A DNA stretch of 64,000 nt from Chloroflexota bacterium (lineage in GTDB: Bacteria > Chloroflexota > Anaerolineae > Anaerolineales > UBA11579), in assembly GCA_013112575.1 (NCBI GenBank), contig JABFGG010000004.1, positions 186,001-250,000 of the forward strand. Reading direction: 5' to 3'. Below, piece by piece: positions 54,492-61,955 of the stretch; position 1 is the stretch's first letter; every line of letters begins with the position of its first letter. Under the pieces are notes generated by a model that searched no databases, was not told the DNA's origin, and saw only the letters and a list, made by a program, of their open reading frames with translations. The translations under genes and the position numbers were made by a program.

Positions 54492-56756
54492 TTATTTTTT
54501 GTCTGGATTGCTTGACCCTAGGAACTGGCTAAGATTTTTGATTGTGTCATCCAGTGTTCTTTCTAATTCAATTGCATCTGTTCGTGTAACAATGTGAATC
54601 CCTTTCCGCACTAGCCTATTATTTGGATCCTCAACAGAAACAACGCGGTGCGTATTTATATGTTCGCGCAATGCGTTGCTTGACTTTTCCAAGAAATTCA
54701 TTTGATTATTCACCACCATTATCTGTCTTGACAAATCTGCTTTGAAAACAATTTGAGGATTAGGTACCTTAAACTCTGAAGCCAGTTCTCGAACACGATT
54801 TGCTGTACTACTAAATAATTCAGTATTTTCAGATAATGTTGATATTTGAAGATCAGCTCGGTCAAAAATGCTAATAAGTAGTTTTGGAATCATCGTATGC
54901 AAAGACTGATTCATTGATGCGATTGAGCTAGTTAGATTTAGCGATCTGCCATCTATATCTTCTCTTGTAATGTTAGGAAGTGGATTACTCTCAGAAAGGG
55001 CTTTGTAGATTGGGTACTCTGCATTAAACCTTGTACTGACATCTACTCCCCATTGATCTACAAGCGAAGCATAACCTTTTGGATCCTCCCAAAATTCTTC
55101 AGTAGTTAGACCTTCTTGGCCAGTATATTTGTAATATACATTCGCGAGCACACGCAGAAGTTCACAAAATTCTTCAAAACGTCCCATAAACTGTCGCTCA
55201 TATTCAGTCGGTTCTCCAAGGGCATCAGGTGGTTCAGTTGGCGTAACACCTGTAAATGAATATTGGTAAAGCTGGATCTCAATATTATTTACGGTAATTA
55301 CATCACCTGTGCCCGCTTTAGAAATAATACCTAGCCTACTGAAGAACCAGTTTGCGTCTCGAATTAGTGAATCTTCTAAGAAGGAAGTTCTGGGATCCTG
55401 AATACTAAACCCGATAGGACTTGAATGTAATTCGTGAGCATGTACGAAAATGGCTCGAATTAACTCCTCGTTTTCTTTCCATTTTGAAATTCTTCTAGAA
55501 AGATATTTATCCTCAAGTAATGTAGTGATTGATTTTTGAAATCTTGCCTTCGTTGTATCGACTTCATTTTGTTCATATATAATTAGAGGGAAACCGTCTT
55601 TATCGTAAGCATCAATACGATCTTTTACTGTTTGTCGCAATTCGAAAAAATCATTTGTTGCTTCGAAGCAGAGTGCCCGTTTAAAATCATTCAGAGCGTT
55701 ACTATTTATGTCTGTCTCCTGAATTATGTTGTCGAGAAATGAACTAATATCAGACCATAAAGGACGAGTAATAAAATATCTCGAGGTAAAATAAGTGTAC
55801 TCAGGAGGGCGATTTATTCCTAATTTATCATTAGATGCACCAATTGAATAAAGCTCTTCACCGCCAACAAAAATAAAAATTGCATCCGACAATGTAAACA
55901 AAGTTTTGAAATATTTCAATATTTCTTCGACATTATTTCTGTTTAATTTGTCAAGTTCATCTATCAAATAAACAACTTTGTTTCCTCTATTGCTAATATC
56001 CCTGTGTATCTTCTCCAAATCAAATTCCAAATTCCCGACACTGTTATCAAGCTTATATACCTGATCTGCTTTTATTGATAGTTGTTCCGTTTCCTCAGAT
56101 GATTTAACTACTGAGTAATAGTAATTAATTACTACTGGAATCGGAATGGCTAGTAGGAAAGCAATAAGTGCGTTTAGATTATTGGAGGGTAGTAGTTGGC
56201 CAAAGAAGACCAATCCACTAATAATCCATGAACCGACAATAAAAATTGACTTTAAACCAATTTCGTGTATTTGGATTTCTAATGAACTTTTTCTAGCAAC
56301 ATTCTTTTTATTTTCACGTAAGTGTTGGATATTCTCTTCTTGGGTAAATTCAGATGCGATAGCCTTCCGGTAAAGCTCTTTGATTGCATTATCAGTCTTT
56401 AATTGATTATGCTGTCTCGTAGCTGAATATAGTCGTCTTATTAAGTTTTCAAGTATTCTTTTTGCCTCTACATCTTTGTTCAATGACTCAATCTCTAATT
56501 GCGCAGCGTTCAATACTACAGGAATAATTGAATTACTATTGTTCATCGCTACACTAATAGCATAATATGCTAACGATGTTTTCCCCACTCCTCTATGGCC
56601 ACTAATTAATATCGAGCCGCTGGTTTTGTTTCTAATTTCGTTTATAAGTTTAGATAACTCAGTCTTTCTTCCAGAGAATAGGCCTTTAGACTCAAAATTC
56701 CTTTCAATCCTTGGTACCTTTGTTGTGGAATCCCATTCTTTCTTGAGCTTGATCAT
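54492..56756 (-). CDS. KAP-family P-loop NTPase with inserted membrane helices
   Basis: 754 residues. Walker A GHRGVGKT (53-60) and Walker B VVYLIDELDK (261-270) are separated by two hydrophobic helices (about 170-190 and 194-213), the architecture that marks KAP NTPases (Kidins220/ARMS and the phage-exclusion protein PifA). FTLSDAIFIFVGGEEL and RYFITRPLW follow as sensor-like strands; the C-terminal 300 residues are helical and unrecognised. The gene is clearly more AT-rich than its neighbours by eye and uses AT-rich codons, a sign of transfer. Promoter TTGACA/TATACT and AGGAGGT lie upstream. Probably membrane-attached; an antiphage role is a guess from PifA. Confidence 0.72.
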   Translation of the reverse strand: MIKLKKEWDSTTKVPRIERNFESKGLFSGRKTELSKLINEIRNKTSGSILISGHRGVGKTSLAYYAISVAMNNSNSIIPVVLNAAQLEIESLNKDVEAKRILENLIRRLYSATRQHNQLKTDNAIKELYRKAIASEFTQEENIQHLRENKKNVARKSSLEIQIHEIGLKSIFIVGSWIISGLVFFGQLLPSNNLNALIAFLLAIPIPVVINYYYSVVKSSEETEQLSIKADQVYKLDNSVGNLEFDLEKIHRDISNRGNKVVYLIDELDKLNRNNVEEILKYFKTLFTLSDAIFIFVGGEELYSIGASNDKLGINRPPEYTYFTSRYFITRPLWSDISSFLDNIIQETDINSNALNDFKRALCFEATNDFFELRQTVKDRIDAYDKDGFPLIIYEQNEVDTTKARFQKSITTLLEDKYLSRRISKWKENEELIRAIFVHAHELHSSPIGFSIQDPRTSFLEDSLIRDANWFFSRLGIISKAGTGDVITVNNIEIQLYQYSFTGVTPTEPPDALGEPTEYERQFMGRFEEFCELLRVLANVYYKYTGQEGLTTEEFWEDPKGYASLVDQWGVDVSTRFNAEYPIYKALSESNPLPNITREDIDGRSLNLTSSIASMNQSLHTMIPKLLISIFDRADLQISTLSENTELFSSTANRVRELASEFKVPNPQIVFKADLSRQIMVVNNQMNFLEKSSNALREHINTHRVVSVEDPNNRLVRKGIHIVTRTDAIELERTLDDTIKNLSQFLGSSNPDKK

Positions 56757-58407: not shown

Positions 58408-58446
58408 ACGCATACATACGACTTAGACCAATCAGGCCACTTGTAC

Positions 58447-58452
58447 TATACT
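58447..58452 (+). promoter_or_regulatory. -10 box of the selenoprotein-trpS-dtd operon
   Basis: TATACT 28 bases before the ATG at 58481; AGGAG at 58469-58473 is the ribosome site. No strong -35. Confidence 0.45.
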
Positions 58453-58480
58453 TAGACCATCTTATTTTAGGAGCAGAACC

Positions 58481-58735
58481 ATGGCCGTTGATATCAGCCT
58501 GACCTATTGCGTACCTTGAAAGTACACCCCGCGTGCCCTCAGTTTGATGGGCGAAATCATGGGAAACCGCAGCGTGGAAGAACACGTTGGCTCGTTCAAG
58601 ATGATCCCCTCCGATAATGGCCGCTTCGAGTTTGAAGTGGACGGCGAAGTGCTGTTCTCCAAAAAAGAACTCGGCCGCCACGCAGACCCCGGCGAGATCT
58701 CCGGGCTGCTGAAAGAGCATTTGAAAATAGCATAA
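58481..58735 (+). CDS. SelW-like (Rdx family) selenoprotein, UGA read as selenocysteine
   Basis: 84 residues if the in-frame TGA at 58517-58519 is selenocysteine. The reading from ATG 58481 gives [13 protein letters not shown] then [13 protein letters not shown]: a CxxU redox motif (Cys10, Sec13) directly after the first beta strand, exactly where SelW/SelT/Rdx proteins have CxxC or CxxU. The rest ([29 protein letters not shown] and the [12 protein letters not shown] end) is the thioredoxin-like Rdx fold. AGGAG sits 7 bases before the ATG. A hairpin at 58535-58552 fits a bacterial SECIS. Ordinary gene finders would start at 58544 and lose the active site. 16 bases before trpS. Confidence 0.85.
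58535..58552 (+). promoter_or_regulatory. Bacterial SECIS element
   Basis: GCCC-TC-AGTTT-GA-T-GGGC stem-loop inside the coding region. The apical loop has G as second base (58542), 23 bases after the UGA, and a U lies beside a bulge in the upper stem, as in known bSECIS elements. Confidence 0.65.
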
Positions 58736-58751
58736 CCGTCAGGAACACAAT

Positions 58752-59810
58752 ATGGCAGAAAAAAAGCGTTTACTCACCGGTGATCGACCCACCGGCAAAT
58801 TACATCTGGGCCACTACGTAGGCTCCATAGCCAACCGCGTCCGCTTGCAGGAGGAATACGACAGTTTCTTCCTGGTGGCCGACCTGCACATGCTGACCAC
58901 CAAGAACACGCCGGAAGACATCGCGCAGGTCGACAAGAACACGCGCGACATGGTGCTGGACATGATCGCGGCTGGCATCGACCCCGACAAAGTGACCTAT
59001 TATTTGCAGTCGGCCATCCCCGAGGTCAGCGAGATGTTCACGCTTTTCCAAAGTCTGGTGACCGTGGCGCGGCTGGAGCGTTTGCCCAGCCTCAAGGACA
59101 TGGCGCGTGACGCCAACGTGGAGATGTCCTTTGCCCTGTTGGGATATCCCATATTGCAGGCCGCAGATATCCTGTGTGTGCGGGGTGACCTCGTGCCGGT
59201 GGGCAAGGACAACATCGCCCACGTAGAGATCACGCGCGAGATCGCCCGGCGCTTCAACCACCTGTACGGCGAAACGCTGCCCGTGCCAGATGGCATGGTG
59301 GGTGAAGTGCCCACGCTGATCGGGACTGGTGGGAAACACAAGATGAGCAAAAGCCTGGGCAACGCCATTATGTTAAGTGATTCTGCCAAAGAGGTCGAGA
59401 AGAAGGTAATGTCGATGTACACCGACCCCAAACGCATCAGCGCCGATGTGCCGGGAACGGTGGAGGGCAACCCCGTGTTCGATTACCATGATATCTTCAA
59501 CCCCAACAAAGAAGAAGTGGAAGACCTCAAAACACGTTACGAAGCTGGCAAGGTGGGCGACGTGGAGGTCAAGGAAAAACTGGCCGTGGCGCTGAACAAC
59601 TTCCTGGAGCCGATGCGCGAACGCCGCGCCCAATTCGATGAACCCGGCTACGTGGAAGAGATCATCGTTAAGGGCACTCAGGTGGCCCGCGAGGAAACCC
59701 AACAAACCCTGTATGCCATGAAAAAAGCCATGGGGCTGACCGGCGTGTGGAACCGCATCCGTCGCAAAGTGGAGAAATACGAGAAGAAAAAGGCCAAAAC
59801 GGCGGCCTGA
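58752..59810 (+). CDS. trpS: Tryptophanyl-tRNA synthetase
   Basis: 352 residues. Class I synthetase charging tRNA-Trp. [19 protein letters not shown] carries the HIGH-type HLGH, then [54 protein letters not shown], and [14 protein letters not shown] with KMSKS. A basic C-terminal tail ([16 protein letters not shown]). Middle gene of the selenoprotein-trpS-dtd operon. Confidence 0.96.
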
Positions 59811-59811
59811 G

Positions 59812-60252
59812 ATGCGCGCCTTAGTGCAACGCGTGCAAGCGGGGGCAGTGACCGTGGAAGAACGCCGCGTGGCGGAAATCGAGCGCGGTGTGGTGGTGCT
59901 GTTGGGGGTGGGGCCAGAGGATGGCGAAGAACAGGCGCGTTATCTGGCCGAGAAGATCGCCAACTTGCGAATTTTTGAGGACGAGGCCGGGAAGATGAAC
60001 CTGTCCTTGCTGGATGTGGGGGGCGAAGCTATTGTGGTATCCCAATTCACTTTATATGCCGATACGCGTAAAGGACGACGGCCCTCTTTTGTGAGCGCGG
60101 CGGCACCAGAGGTGGCCGAGCCGTTAGTGGCACGCTTTGCTGCCATTCTGCAAGAGCAGGGTGTGCCAGCCCAGACGGGGGAGTTCGGGGCGCACATGCT
60201 GGTGGAGATCGCCAACGACGGGCCGGTGACGATCTGGATGGAGAGAGAATAA
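59812..60252 (+). CDS. dtd: D-aminoacyl-tRNA deacylase
   Basis: 146 residues. Removes D-amino acids wrongly attached to t[39 protein letters not shown] (active-site SQFTLYAD) and the C-terminal [10 protein letters not shown] (cross-subunit GP motif) are all intact. Starts one base after the trpS stop, so the two quality-control activities are coupled. Confidence 0.95.
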
Positions 60253-60297: not shown

Positions 60298-61065
60298 TTA
60301 TTCGTTGAAGCCCTCAAATAGGGCCTGAGCATCCCCCCGCCATAAAACCGTATCCAACTGCACAGCAATCGCTCCGGCATCCAGCATGGCCCTGGCATCG
60401 TCGGGGCTGTACACGCCCCCGGCCCCAATGACCGTATAACCTTCCTCGGCCAGTGCGTCTACCATCTGAAAAGCCTGGGGGAAATTTGAGGGGCCATAGA
60501 GCCTGCCGCGCAACAGGCTGCCATCTTCGCCGAGCGTAGCGCCGCGTGGTGGACCCAGGCTGAGGGCCACAGCCCCCGCGTTCATAACGGGGCCAGCGAG
60601 GTCGAAGGCCCTTGGCAGGGGCAAGCGCACAATCAAGGGGAGTTCACCCAACCCTTCTTTGGTGATTTGTACAGCCTCACCAACGGAAATATCCCAGGGT
60701 AAGCCCAGTTCCACGGCCATGATGTTCTCTTGCATTTCCAGACGCTCGACAATGCTGCTCAGGTCGGGGTCAGCGCCTCCCAACAAGTGCACGATAATGG
60801 GGATCGGGCTTTCGGCCCAGCGCGGGGCATAGGTTTTCAATACGCTGCTCAAGCCCGGGTTGGGATGCCCGTTGTGCATGAGCACGCCACCGGATACATG
60901 GGACAGGCGTTGCCCACTAGCGGGCTGGCGAGGACGCCTGCTGATGGGTTTGGTGATGAAAGCTCCGAGCAGGTTGAGGTCGATGGGACTGTCCGTTTCC
61001 AGGGCAAAGCCGAGGCTGCCGGAAGCATTCAAGAGGGGGGAGGGGAAATGTAGGGGGGTATCCAT
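60298..61065 (-). CDS. Dihydroorotate dehydrogenase-like flavoprotein, divergent
   Basis: 255 residues, shorter than the usual 300 or more. TIM-barrel FMN protein: PLLNASGSLGF opens like class 1 enzymes, GAFITKPISRRPR matches the FMN-contact strand, and VIGAGGVYSPDDARAMLDAGAIAVQLDTVLWRGDA is the C-terminal phosphate-binding signature. The NxSCPN segment with its catalytic Cys region is replaced by VELGLPWDIS, and the loop Cys is missing, so it may not oxidise dihydroorotate. A minus-strand TATAAT is at 61085-61090. Single gene, divergent from the DsbA-like gene. Confidence 0.7.
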   Translation of the reverse strand: MDTPLHFPSPLLNASGSLGFALETDSPIDLNLLGAFITKPISRRPRQPASGQRLSHVSGGVLMHNGHPNPGLSSVLKTYAPRWAESPIPIIVHLLGGADPDLSSIVERLEMQENIMAVELGLPWDISVGEAVQITKEGLGELPLIVRLPLPRAFDLAGPVMNAGAVALSLGPPRGATLGEDGSLLRGRLYGPSNFPQAFQMVDALAEEGYTVIGAGGVYSPDDARAMLDAGAIAVQLDTVLWRGDAQALFEGFNE

Positions 61066-61151: not shown

Positions 61152-61955
61152 ATGGCTGAAGAAGATATTCAAGAGCAAGAAATAGAGATCGAAGAAGAAA
61201 TTGAAGACCAGGTGGAGGATGGTGAGGAGTTAGAAGAAGAGGAAGAAACCATCACCATCACCCTGAAGCGCTCGACCTTCTTCGCCATTCTCATCCCAAT
61301 TGCATTCATTGTTGGTTTAGGCTCGGGTTACCTGCTGTGGGGGCGCGGTGGTAGTGCTACTACGACCACAACCACAACTGACGGCAGTGCACCGGTTGAA
61401 GCCGCTGACCAAACCCTGCCACGTTATGATATTCCTATCACAGATGAAGATCCTGCCATCGGGCCGGAAGATGCTCCGGTGACGGTGATCGAGTTCAGTG
61501 ATTTTGAGTGCCCCTTCTGCCGCCGCCACACGCTGGAGACTGCCCCCCAGATCCTGTCACAATATGAAGGCCAGATACGCTATATCTTCAAGGACTTCCC
61601 TCTAAGATCGATTCACCCCCAAGCCGACCCGGCTGCAGAGGCGGCACATTGTGCCCGCGAGCAGGGCGAATTTTGGGCATACCATGACTTGCTCTTTGAG
61701 TTATCGCTACCCTTAGGCTCGGAAACATATATCCAATATGCGGAAGACCTGGGCCTGAATATGTCTCAGTTCACAGAGTGTGTGGAAAACCGCAAATATG
61801 CTGATAATGTACAGGCCAACTTCGACTTCGCCGCCCAATTAGGTGTGCGGTCCACACCGACCTTCTTTATTAACGGTATTGCTGTGGTGGGTGCACAGCC
61901 TTTTGCGACTTTCCAGGAAGTGATCGATGGTGAGTTGAACGGGACGAACCAGTAA
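61152..61955 (+). CDS. Membrane-anchored DsbA-like thioredoxin (Thioredoxin_4)
   Basis: 267 residues. An extremely acidic cytoplasmic N-terminus (residues 3-33 mostly Glu/Asp/Gln), one membrane helix (FFAILIPIAFIVGLGSGYLLW), a Thr-rich spacer, then an extracytoplasmic DsbA/DsbG-type domain: VTVIEFSDFECPFCRRHTLE with CPFC, HCAREQGEFWAYHDLLFE, and the cis-proline STPTFFINGI. It likely forms or rearranges disulfides in exported proteins. Extra Cys residues in AAHCARE and TECVEN are typical of the subfamily. Ends at a perfect terminator. Confidence 0.9.
   Translation: MAEEDIQEQEIEIEEEIEDQVEDGEELEEEEETITITLKRSTFFAILIPIAFIVGLGSGYLLWGRGGSATTTTTTTDGSAPVEAADQTLPRYDIPITDEDPAIGPEDAPVTVIEFSDFECPFCRRHTLETAPQILSQYEGQIRYIFKDFPLRSIHPQADPAAEAAHCAREQGEFWAYHDLLFELSLPLGSETYIQYAEDLGLNMSQFTECVENRKYADNVQANFDFAAQLGVRSTPTFFINGIAVVGAQPFATFQEVIDGELNGTNQ

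Follow-up and report, generated by a model that had tools for sequence, protein, structure and literature searches.

A predicted SelW-like selenoprotein gene with a conserved in-frame UGA codon located ahead of trpS and dtd in a Chloroflexota genome

Among marine SelW-like selenoproteins, forms containing selenocysteine (Sec) outnumber those with Cys, with 48 versus 7 in the Sargasso Sea and 427 versus 56 in GOS, according to the corresponding reports (PMC1088965, PMC2398784, PMC1794560). For SelW of Campylobacter jejuni (CJnc60), reading through the UGA was described based on Ribo-seq occupancy and peptides past the Sec site detected by mass spectrometry (PMC11955535), and SelW genes of Epsilonproteobacteria were reported to be partly missed in annotation (PMC4607533). 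Furthermore, a 2026 review describes Prx as an operon neighbour of SELENOW-like genes (PMC13188914).

The gene described here, selW, is located within a 64,000-nt stretch of DNA from a Chloroflexota bacterium, hereafter the window, and its product belongs to the already known kind of SelW-like selenoproteins. As far as the sources at hand describe them, bacterial SelW-like selenoproteins share with the window protein the CxxU motif, a SECIS element with a loop G right after the UGA and the dominance of the Sec form (PMC1088965, PMC2398784, PMC1794560). The Campylobacter jejuni protein CJnc60 of 80-81 aa, likewise encoded with a UGA, also resembles it in the parts of the sources covering this protein (PMC11955535, PMC4607533). 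However, the window protein reached only 68.7 bits against the Campylobacter equivalog SelTWH_Campy (NF041051), which is below the cut-off of 88, and was therefore not placed in that equivalog. Relative to the bacterial SelW-like selenoproteins, the genomic surroundings differ as well: selW of the window forms a block with trpS and dtd, whereas Prx is the sole SelW neighbour named in the available parts of the sources on these proteins (PMC2398784, PMC13188914). The spelling 'SelW' had no occurrence in the accessible main text of PMC5029168, PMC9312934 and PMC12013277, and no report of a selW-trpS arrangement was found in the literature searched, most subscription journals lying outside it. 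The less expected part is the position of selW, which mostly lies directly ahead of trpS in the carriers of this order and deserves a second look. It is considered highly probable that the UGA at codon 13 is decoded as Sec, likely by means of the downstream hairpin, and that selW encodes a predicted redox protein and likely forms a unit with trpS and dtd.

The selW gene occupies positions 58481-58735 on the forward strand and encodes an 84-residue Rdx/SelW-like protein with a predicted Sec at residue 13 (CVPU). Its reading frame starts with ATG 58481 and comprises 12 codons, the TGA at 58517-58519 (forward strand), which is the predicted Sec codon and is kept at this position in relatives, 71 sense codons and the stop codon TAA at 58733-58735. 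The Shine-Dalgarno sequence AGGAG (58469-58473, forward strand) is placed 7 nt ahead of the start codon. Start codon, AGGAG spacing and the division into 12 residues, TGA and 71 codons had been given in an earlier note made from the sequence alone, and proved exact on re-reading. Based on base composition alone, the chance of 71 open codons past the UGA amounts to approximately 6%, and the open frame is therefore weak evidence by itself; strong evidence is provided by homology flanking the UGA on both sides and by the occurrence of the UGA at a single kept position. A weak promoter-like site (TAGACC-17-TATACT, 58424-58452, forward strand) was the only one found by the promoter scan near selW, as compared to 1.1 expected in shuffled sequences, which is no better than chance. 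Scanning for terminators yielded one terminator-like site, on the reverse strand.

Translated with the UGA as Sec, the selW product matched the Pfam family Rdx (PF10262) with 49.3 bits (cut-off 22.6) and TIGR02174 (CXXU_selWTH) with 37.0 bits (cut-off 34.2); its nearest named relatives originate from Chloroflexi/Anaerolineae. The redox motif C10-V-P-U13 is placed between strand 3-10 and helix 16-27 of the structural model. C10 and position 13 are invariant in an alignment of 22 rows, and a YC motif ahead of the UGA is conserved among SelW relatives. The closest solved relative by sequence is 2fa8 (E 1.2e-6), an entry titled SelW-related, and the same entry represents the best structural match (TM 0.84) of the AlphaFold2 model, which was calculated from 13 alignment rows with Cys in place of Sec and reached a pLDDT of 88.5. 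In total, 21 structure matches with E <= 0.001 were obtained for the model, and all are chains that belong to six bacterial entries. The titles of 2fa8, 2p0g and 2obk name them as SelW-related or Se-binding, and the remaining entries (2oka, 2ojl, 3dex) are Rdx relatives by sequence too. The CxxU motif in an Rdx/SelW-type fold, as proposed in the earlier note, is supported by family profile and model. The entries 2fa8, 3dex, 2obk and 2p0g share the fold of the window protein at TM values of about 0.8 and at 20-28% identity over the fold; in the alignments, 2fa8, 3dex and 2obk feature CxxC, whereas the window protein has CxxU. Mouse SelW (2npb), which also carries the CxxU motif, shows an Rdx-type fold as well, with a weaker match of TM 0.56. 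SelW of the window would be a small thioredoxin-fold oxidoreductase in which the pair Cys10/Sec13 probably cycles between the selenol/thiol and the selenenylsulfide state, and its predicted activity is the reduction of peroxides or of protein or glutathione disulfides. The few database entries found for this branch (three of four candidates, P0002, P0003 and P0004) are pieces of 62-67 aa that start past the UGA and are thus devoid of the active site.

Conservation of the UGA was evaluated in a set of 61 genomes, comprising the window's own and 60 relatives. A selW homologue was present in 32 of the 61 genomes (own included), and all 32 contain an internal TGA; in one of them a TAG was counted in addition, this being the stop codon at its end. 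The TGA was also found in all nine named loci, which are assigned to Anaerolineae/Chloroflexi, to Actinomycetota/Acidimicrobiia and, in one case, to Acidobacteria by label. Read base by base, the UGA represents the second redox position in 39/39 loci (L020-L058) and occupies the same place in 32/32 further loci (L059-L088, L167-L168). Four of the latter repeat genomes already read and L084 seems to duplicate L020, while L167-L168 represent the two of the 32 homologues that earlier had no locus, so that the total of 71 loci includes some genomes twice. Furthermore, a class-wide profile search of 396 genomes gave matches in 179, and among the best 150 of these 179 rows, 147 have one TGA and three have none; the position of the TGA was checked in the 30 rows with loci. 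The three rows without TGA are Cys forms with TGT at the Sec site. Comparison with homologues, as suggested in the earlier note, accordingly gave a Sec-UGA in 71/71 loci read and Cys in three others. Regarding the genomes of the Cys forms, no tRNA-Sec above the cut-off was found in G379, which consists of one contig (best score 43.8). G203 has one hit above the cut-off (50.5 bits, 87 nt) that resembles secondary hits elsewhere, unlike the tRNA-Sec genes of 68-76 bits and 93-95 nt, and G402 possesses a 71.2-bit tRNA-Sec and an additional TGA copy of selW. With this gene, a deep SelW branch made up almost entirely of Sec-containing members is added within a bacterial class. As a separate observation, SelW of L025, on a contig labelled Acidobacteria, is much like that of the Actinomycetota/Acidimicrobiia loci L024, L026 and L027, for which either mis-binning or transfer may account.

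A SECIS-like hairpin (GCCC-UCA-GUU-UGA-(U)-GGGC) is located at 58535-58552 on the forward strand, i.e., 16-33 nt past the UGA, and G58542 is part of its apical loop. SelB carrying Sec-tRNA would likely bind this hairpin, with the UGA then being read as Sec. Taken singly, the hairpin of the window is not statistically unusual: it has a C.U mismatch position and refolds with a bulged U, folding of 64 nt from the UGA gave a z of -0.46 relative to shuffles (60/200 equally good), and its 30-nt stretch reached z -0.63 (p 0.29) relative to synonymous recodings. Scanning the 64-kb window with Rfam gave no hits at gathering scores, so that library support speaks neither for nor against a SECIS element. 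Among the relatives, 8/39 loci reach p 0.05 singly in the synonymous-recoding control (median p 0.106). With offsets measured from the U of the UGA, the 30-nt stretch beginning at offset 9 had the most negative mean z (-1.23, negative in 36/39); the next-lowest value away from the hairpin was -0.81 at offset 105, where 10/39 loci pass p 0.05 versus 8 at the site.

The loop base, number 26 when counting starts at the U of the UGA, is G in 39/39 and in the 32/32 further loci, and Ser codons at the loop G are AGY in 28/28 cases, as compared to 46 AGY and 109 UCN elsewhere downstream (46/155, p 2.4e-13). For one fixed helix applied to all 39 sequences without splitting, five of seven pairs show changes in both arms, as compared to 2.2 in shuffles; the cells changed on both sides of the helix number 22 versus 4.5 +/- 2.4 in shuffled data, a value reached in none of 500 shuffles. 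Within L020-L058, the hairpin 13-35 nt after the UGA occurs in two registers lying a few bases apart, with covariation in each. The main register comprises 26 sequences with 88.5% of cells paired, whereas in the 13 sequences where GUG is the codon preceding the loop, the helix is moved upstream and 87.5% of cells are paired. In this shifted register, base 26 is paired and a different G sits in the loop; its double-change cells number 13 versus 5.2 +/- 2.0 (0/500 shuffles), and its double-change pairs number four, which was reached by 121/500 shuffles. The motif for splitting was chosen by the analyst, and the split leans towards each register, while the test on 39 sequences is unsplit. Position and loop G of the hairpin were thus correctly noted before and are joined by covariation in relatives, whereas the window hairpin on its own does not stand out.

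Sec insertion at the UGA would further imply selA, selB, selC and selD elsewhere in the genome, as stated in the earlier note, and all four were found by genome search. Neither of the refuting conditions named in that note, a genome lacking selB/selC or homologues lacking Cys or Sec at this position, was borne out. The scores amounted to 541.9 bits for selA (cut-off 267.9), 374.5 bits for selB (cut-off 242.25) and 360.3 bits for selD (cut-off 125), and tRNA-Sec (selC) scored 70.9 bits (cut-off 47) and was called tRNA-SeC with anticodon TCA by ARAGORN. The frames of selA and selB contain no inner TGA; selD contains one. Since the assembly consists of 44 contigs (93.8% complete, 3% contamination), the sel genes could in principle originate from a contaminating contig. 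The in-frame TGA of selD (L018:1480-2500; G000 contig C9:50505-51437) lies in KCAGUASKL near the N-terminus, and SelD is therefore likely a selenoprotein itself; in the minimum-energy fold of the 45 nt after its UGA, no clear hairpin of the expected kind appeared. Moreover, selW and selB (over cut-off) co-occur in the 61 genomes, with 28 having both, 4 selW only, 5 selB only and 24 neither (Fisher p 2.5e-8, sets compiled by hand, kinship ignored). Three of the four selW-only genomes encode a tRNA-Sec of 72-76 bits; in the fourth, G025, selB-like matches are limited to partial fragments and no tRNA-Sec is convincing (best 48.8). All five selB-only genomes carry a tRNA-Sec of 67.9-71.9 bits, and it is therefore likely that Sec serves other genes there or that their selW was missed.

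Downstream of selW, the Shine-Dalgarno-like sequence AGGAA (58741-58745) read from the sequence precedes trpS (58752-59810), encoding tryptophanyl-tRNA synthetase (TrpRS), followed by dtd (59812-60252), identified by profile match as D-aminoacyl-tRNA deacylase gene; all are located on the forward strand. The trpS gene ends in TGA and is the single copy found in the 93.8% complete genome. Gaps of 16 nt (selW-trpS) and 1 nt (trpS-dtd) on one strand give the block an operon-like layout, consistent with co-transcription, and selW would likely head the transcription unit. Across the same-order loci L029-L058, representing 12 families (that of the window among them), the first gene identified behind selW on its strand is trpS in 26/30 and dtd in 4/30, with extrapolated gaps of -8 to 214 nt; in four of the loci with trpS, stop and start are extrapolated to overlap by 4-8 nt. 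In 21 more loci of the order, which add 17 genomes (16 belonging to a single family), trpS was located at most 0.3 kb downstream in all. Loci of other orders of the class had neither trpS nor dtd within the 1.2-1.5 kb available (9/9), and among the named loci one of nine has both and eight have neither (about 350 nt could be inspected in L025). Regarding the remaining two of the 32 homologues, trpS is convergent and 3' of selW in G031, and the contig of G045 ends about 150 nt past selW.

Relatives without selW have dtd in 27/29 cases, and no trpS was found in 5 of those 27. In the 22 selW-negative genomes having both genes, trpS lies near dtd in 4 and elsewhere in 18; it is located upstream of dtd within 1.5 kb in two (L104 being too short to tell) and at about 1.7 kb in G032 and G057. 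Among the 26 selW-linked genomes, 18 have one trpS copy and 8 have more. In 4/20 longer stretches, trpS and dtd are parted by a gap of 0.3-2.8 kb. Upstream of selW in these 20 stretches, the closest ORF (>=80 aa, by crude calling) is oriented divergently in 14 and shares the strand of selW in 6; for selW of the window, the closest upstream ORF that is gene-like lies on the same strand, 364 nt off. Because of these mixed upstream ORFs, selW is likely, but not surely, the first gene of its unit. The claim that it leads an operon with trpS and dtd holds for order, strand and gaps, and is softened for the leading position; the tie seen between a redox protein and tRNA charging and proofreading is narrowed to a conserved gene arrangement, with trpS as a strong partner and dtd less so. 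As a main partner of selW, dtd was set aside, since dtd-pyrD-dsbA is often kept without selW and gaps between trpS and dtd occur. Across 12 families within one order, a selenoprotein gene has thus stayed beside genes for tRNA charging or tRNA proofreading, an arrangement that lends itself to testing.

A TrpRS tree based on 45 of the 68 trpS rows found, with long branches, placed the selW-linked enzymes into two separate groups, one of 18 (plus two unlinked rows) and one of 8, the latter including that of the window and being nested among unlinked rows. At least three changes between linked and unlinked state are required on this tree versus 14.8 in shuffles. Within the window's family, one of nine linked loci (L036) carries the other TrpRS type. 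The simplest reading is that trpS was likely displaced in place within this family; loss from an ancestral arrangement is a possible alternative. G003 keeps the other linked TrpRS type and, in addition, a second, unlinked one (L036, L139).

Were the UGA an ordinary stop, selW would be a pseudogene or a short protein starting from TTG 58544. A 63-aa ORF from this codon does exist, and the three database proteins of 62-67 aa begin past the UGA. However, such short entries are the expected output of a gene caller starting after the UGA, the frame with the YC motif before it is conserved, and the UGA is kept in 39/39 and 32/32 loci, some labelled as other phyla. Moreover, a decaying gene would not retain one stop codon, a covarying hairpin and AGY-only Ser codons, and this explanation is considered very improbable. 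Reading of the UGA as Trp or Cys, through a variant code or near-cognate read-through, is judged exceedingly improbable. It could be invoked because trpS adjoins selW and tRNA-Trp is a near-cognate reader of UGA, but full Sec machinery is present in the genome, the selA and selB frames are free of inner TGA codons, and the three non-UGA homologues encode Cys rather than Trp at this position. The variant code UGA=Trp in particular was rejected, since trpS of the same block ends in TGA and TGA is thus also a stop in this genome. A sequencing or assembly error converting a Cys codon (TGC or TGT) to TGA would require a single base change, and Cys forms exist; with the same TGA in separately assembled genomes (32/32, and 147 of the best 150 rows), its probability is practically negligible.

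Besides insertion of Sec, the UGA and the hairpin might gate trpS by selenium or charged tRNA-Trp through translational coupling. The selW-trpS pair would then represent a sensing operon for selenium and tryptophan-tRNA, in which UGA and SECIS set the ribosome flow to the trpS start and TrpRS synthesis tracks selenium and the competition of Sec-tRNA with near-cognate Trp-tRNA at the UGA. Such a reading would fit two TrpRS lineages in one slot, as seen in the window's family, and the departure of trpS from the site in most cases of selW loss (elsewhere in 18/22 selW-negative genomes with trpS and dtd); the position of trpS directly behind selW in 26/30 loci and the four overlaps of 4-8 nt also point in this direction. 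On the other hand, trpS of the window has its own AGGAA, the distance between selW and trpS ranges up to 214 nt, dtd takes the place of trpS in four loci, a further trpS copy exists in 8/26 linked genomes, and selenium control over an essential enzyme would be costly. A shared promoter accounts more simply for the layout, and both the gating of trpS and the sensing operon are therefore regarded as unlikely. If the placement were regulatory, selenium supply would be coupled to tryptophan decoding. In the preferred reading, namely Sec decoding of codon 13 in a redox protein gene, a housekeeping promoter common to selW, trpS and dtd is most likely, rather than an action of selW on tRNA charging.

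Further genes were noticed in the vicinity. After dtd, a short dihydroorotate dehydrogenase-like gene (60298-61065, reverse strand) and a DsbA/thioredoxin-like gene (61152-61955, forward strand) follow in the window, and this dtd-pyrD-dsbA neighbourhood recurs in relatives lacking selW. Upstream of selW, positions 54492-56756 on the reverse strand encode a 754-aa KAP/AAA-type P-loop NTPase featuring hydrophobic, membrane-like segments as judged by eye.
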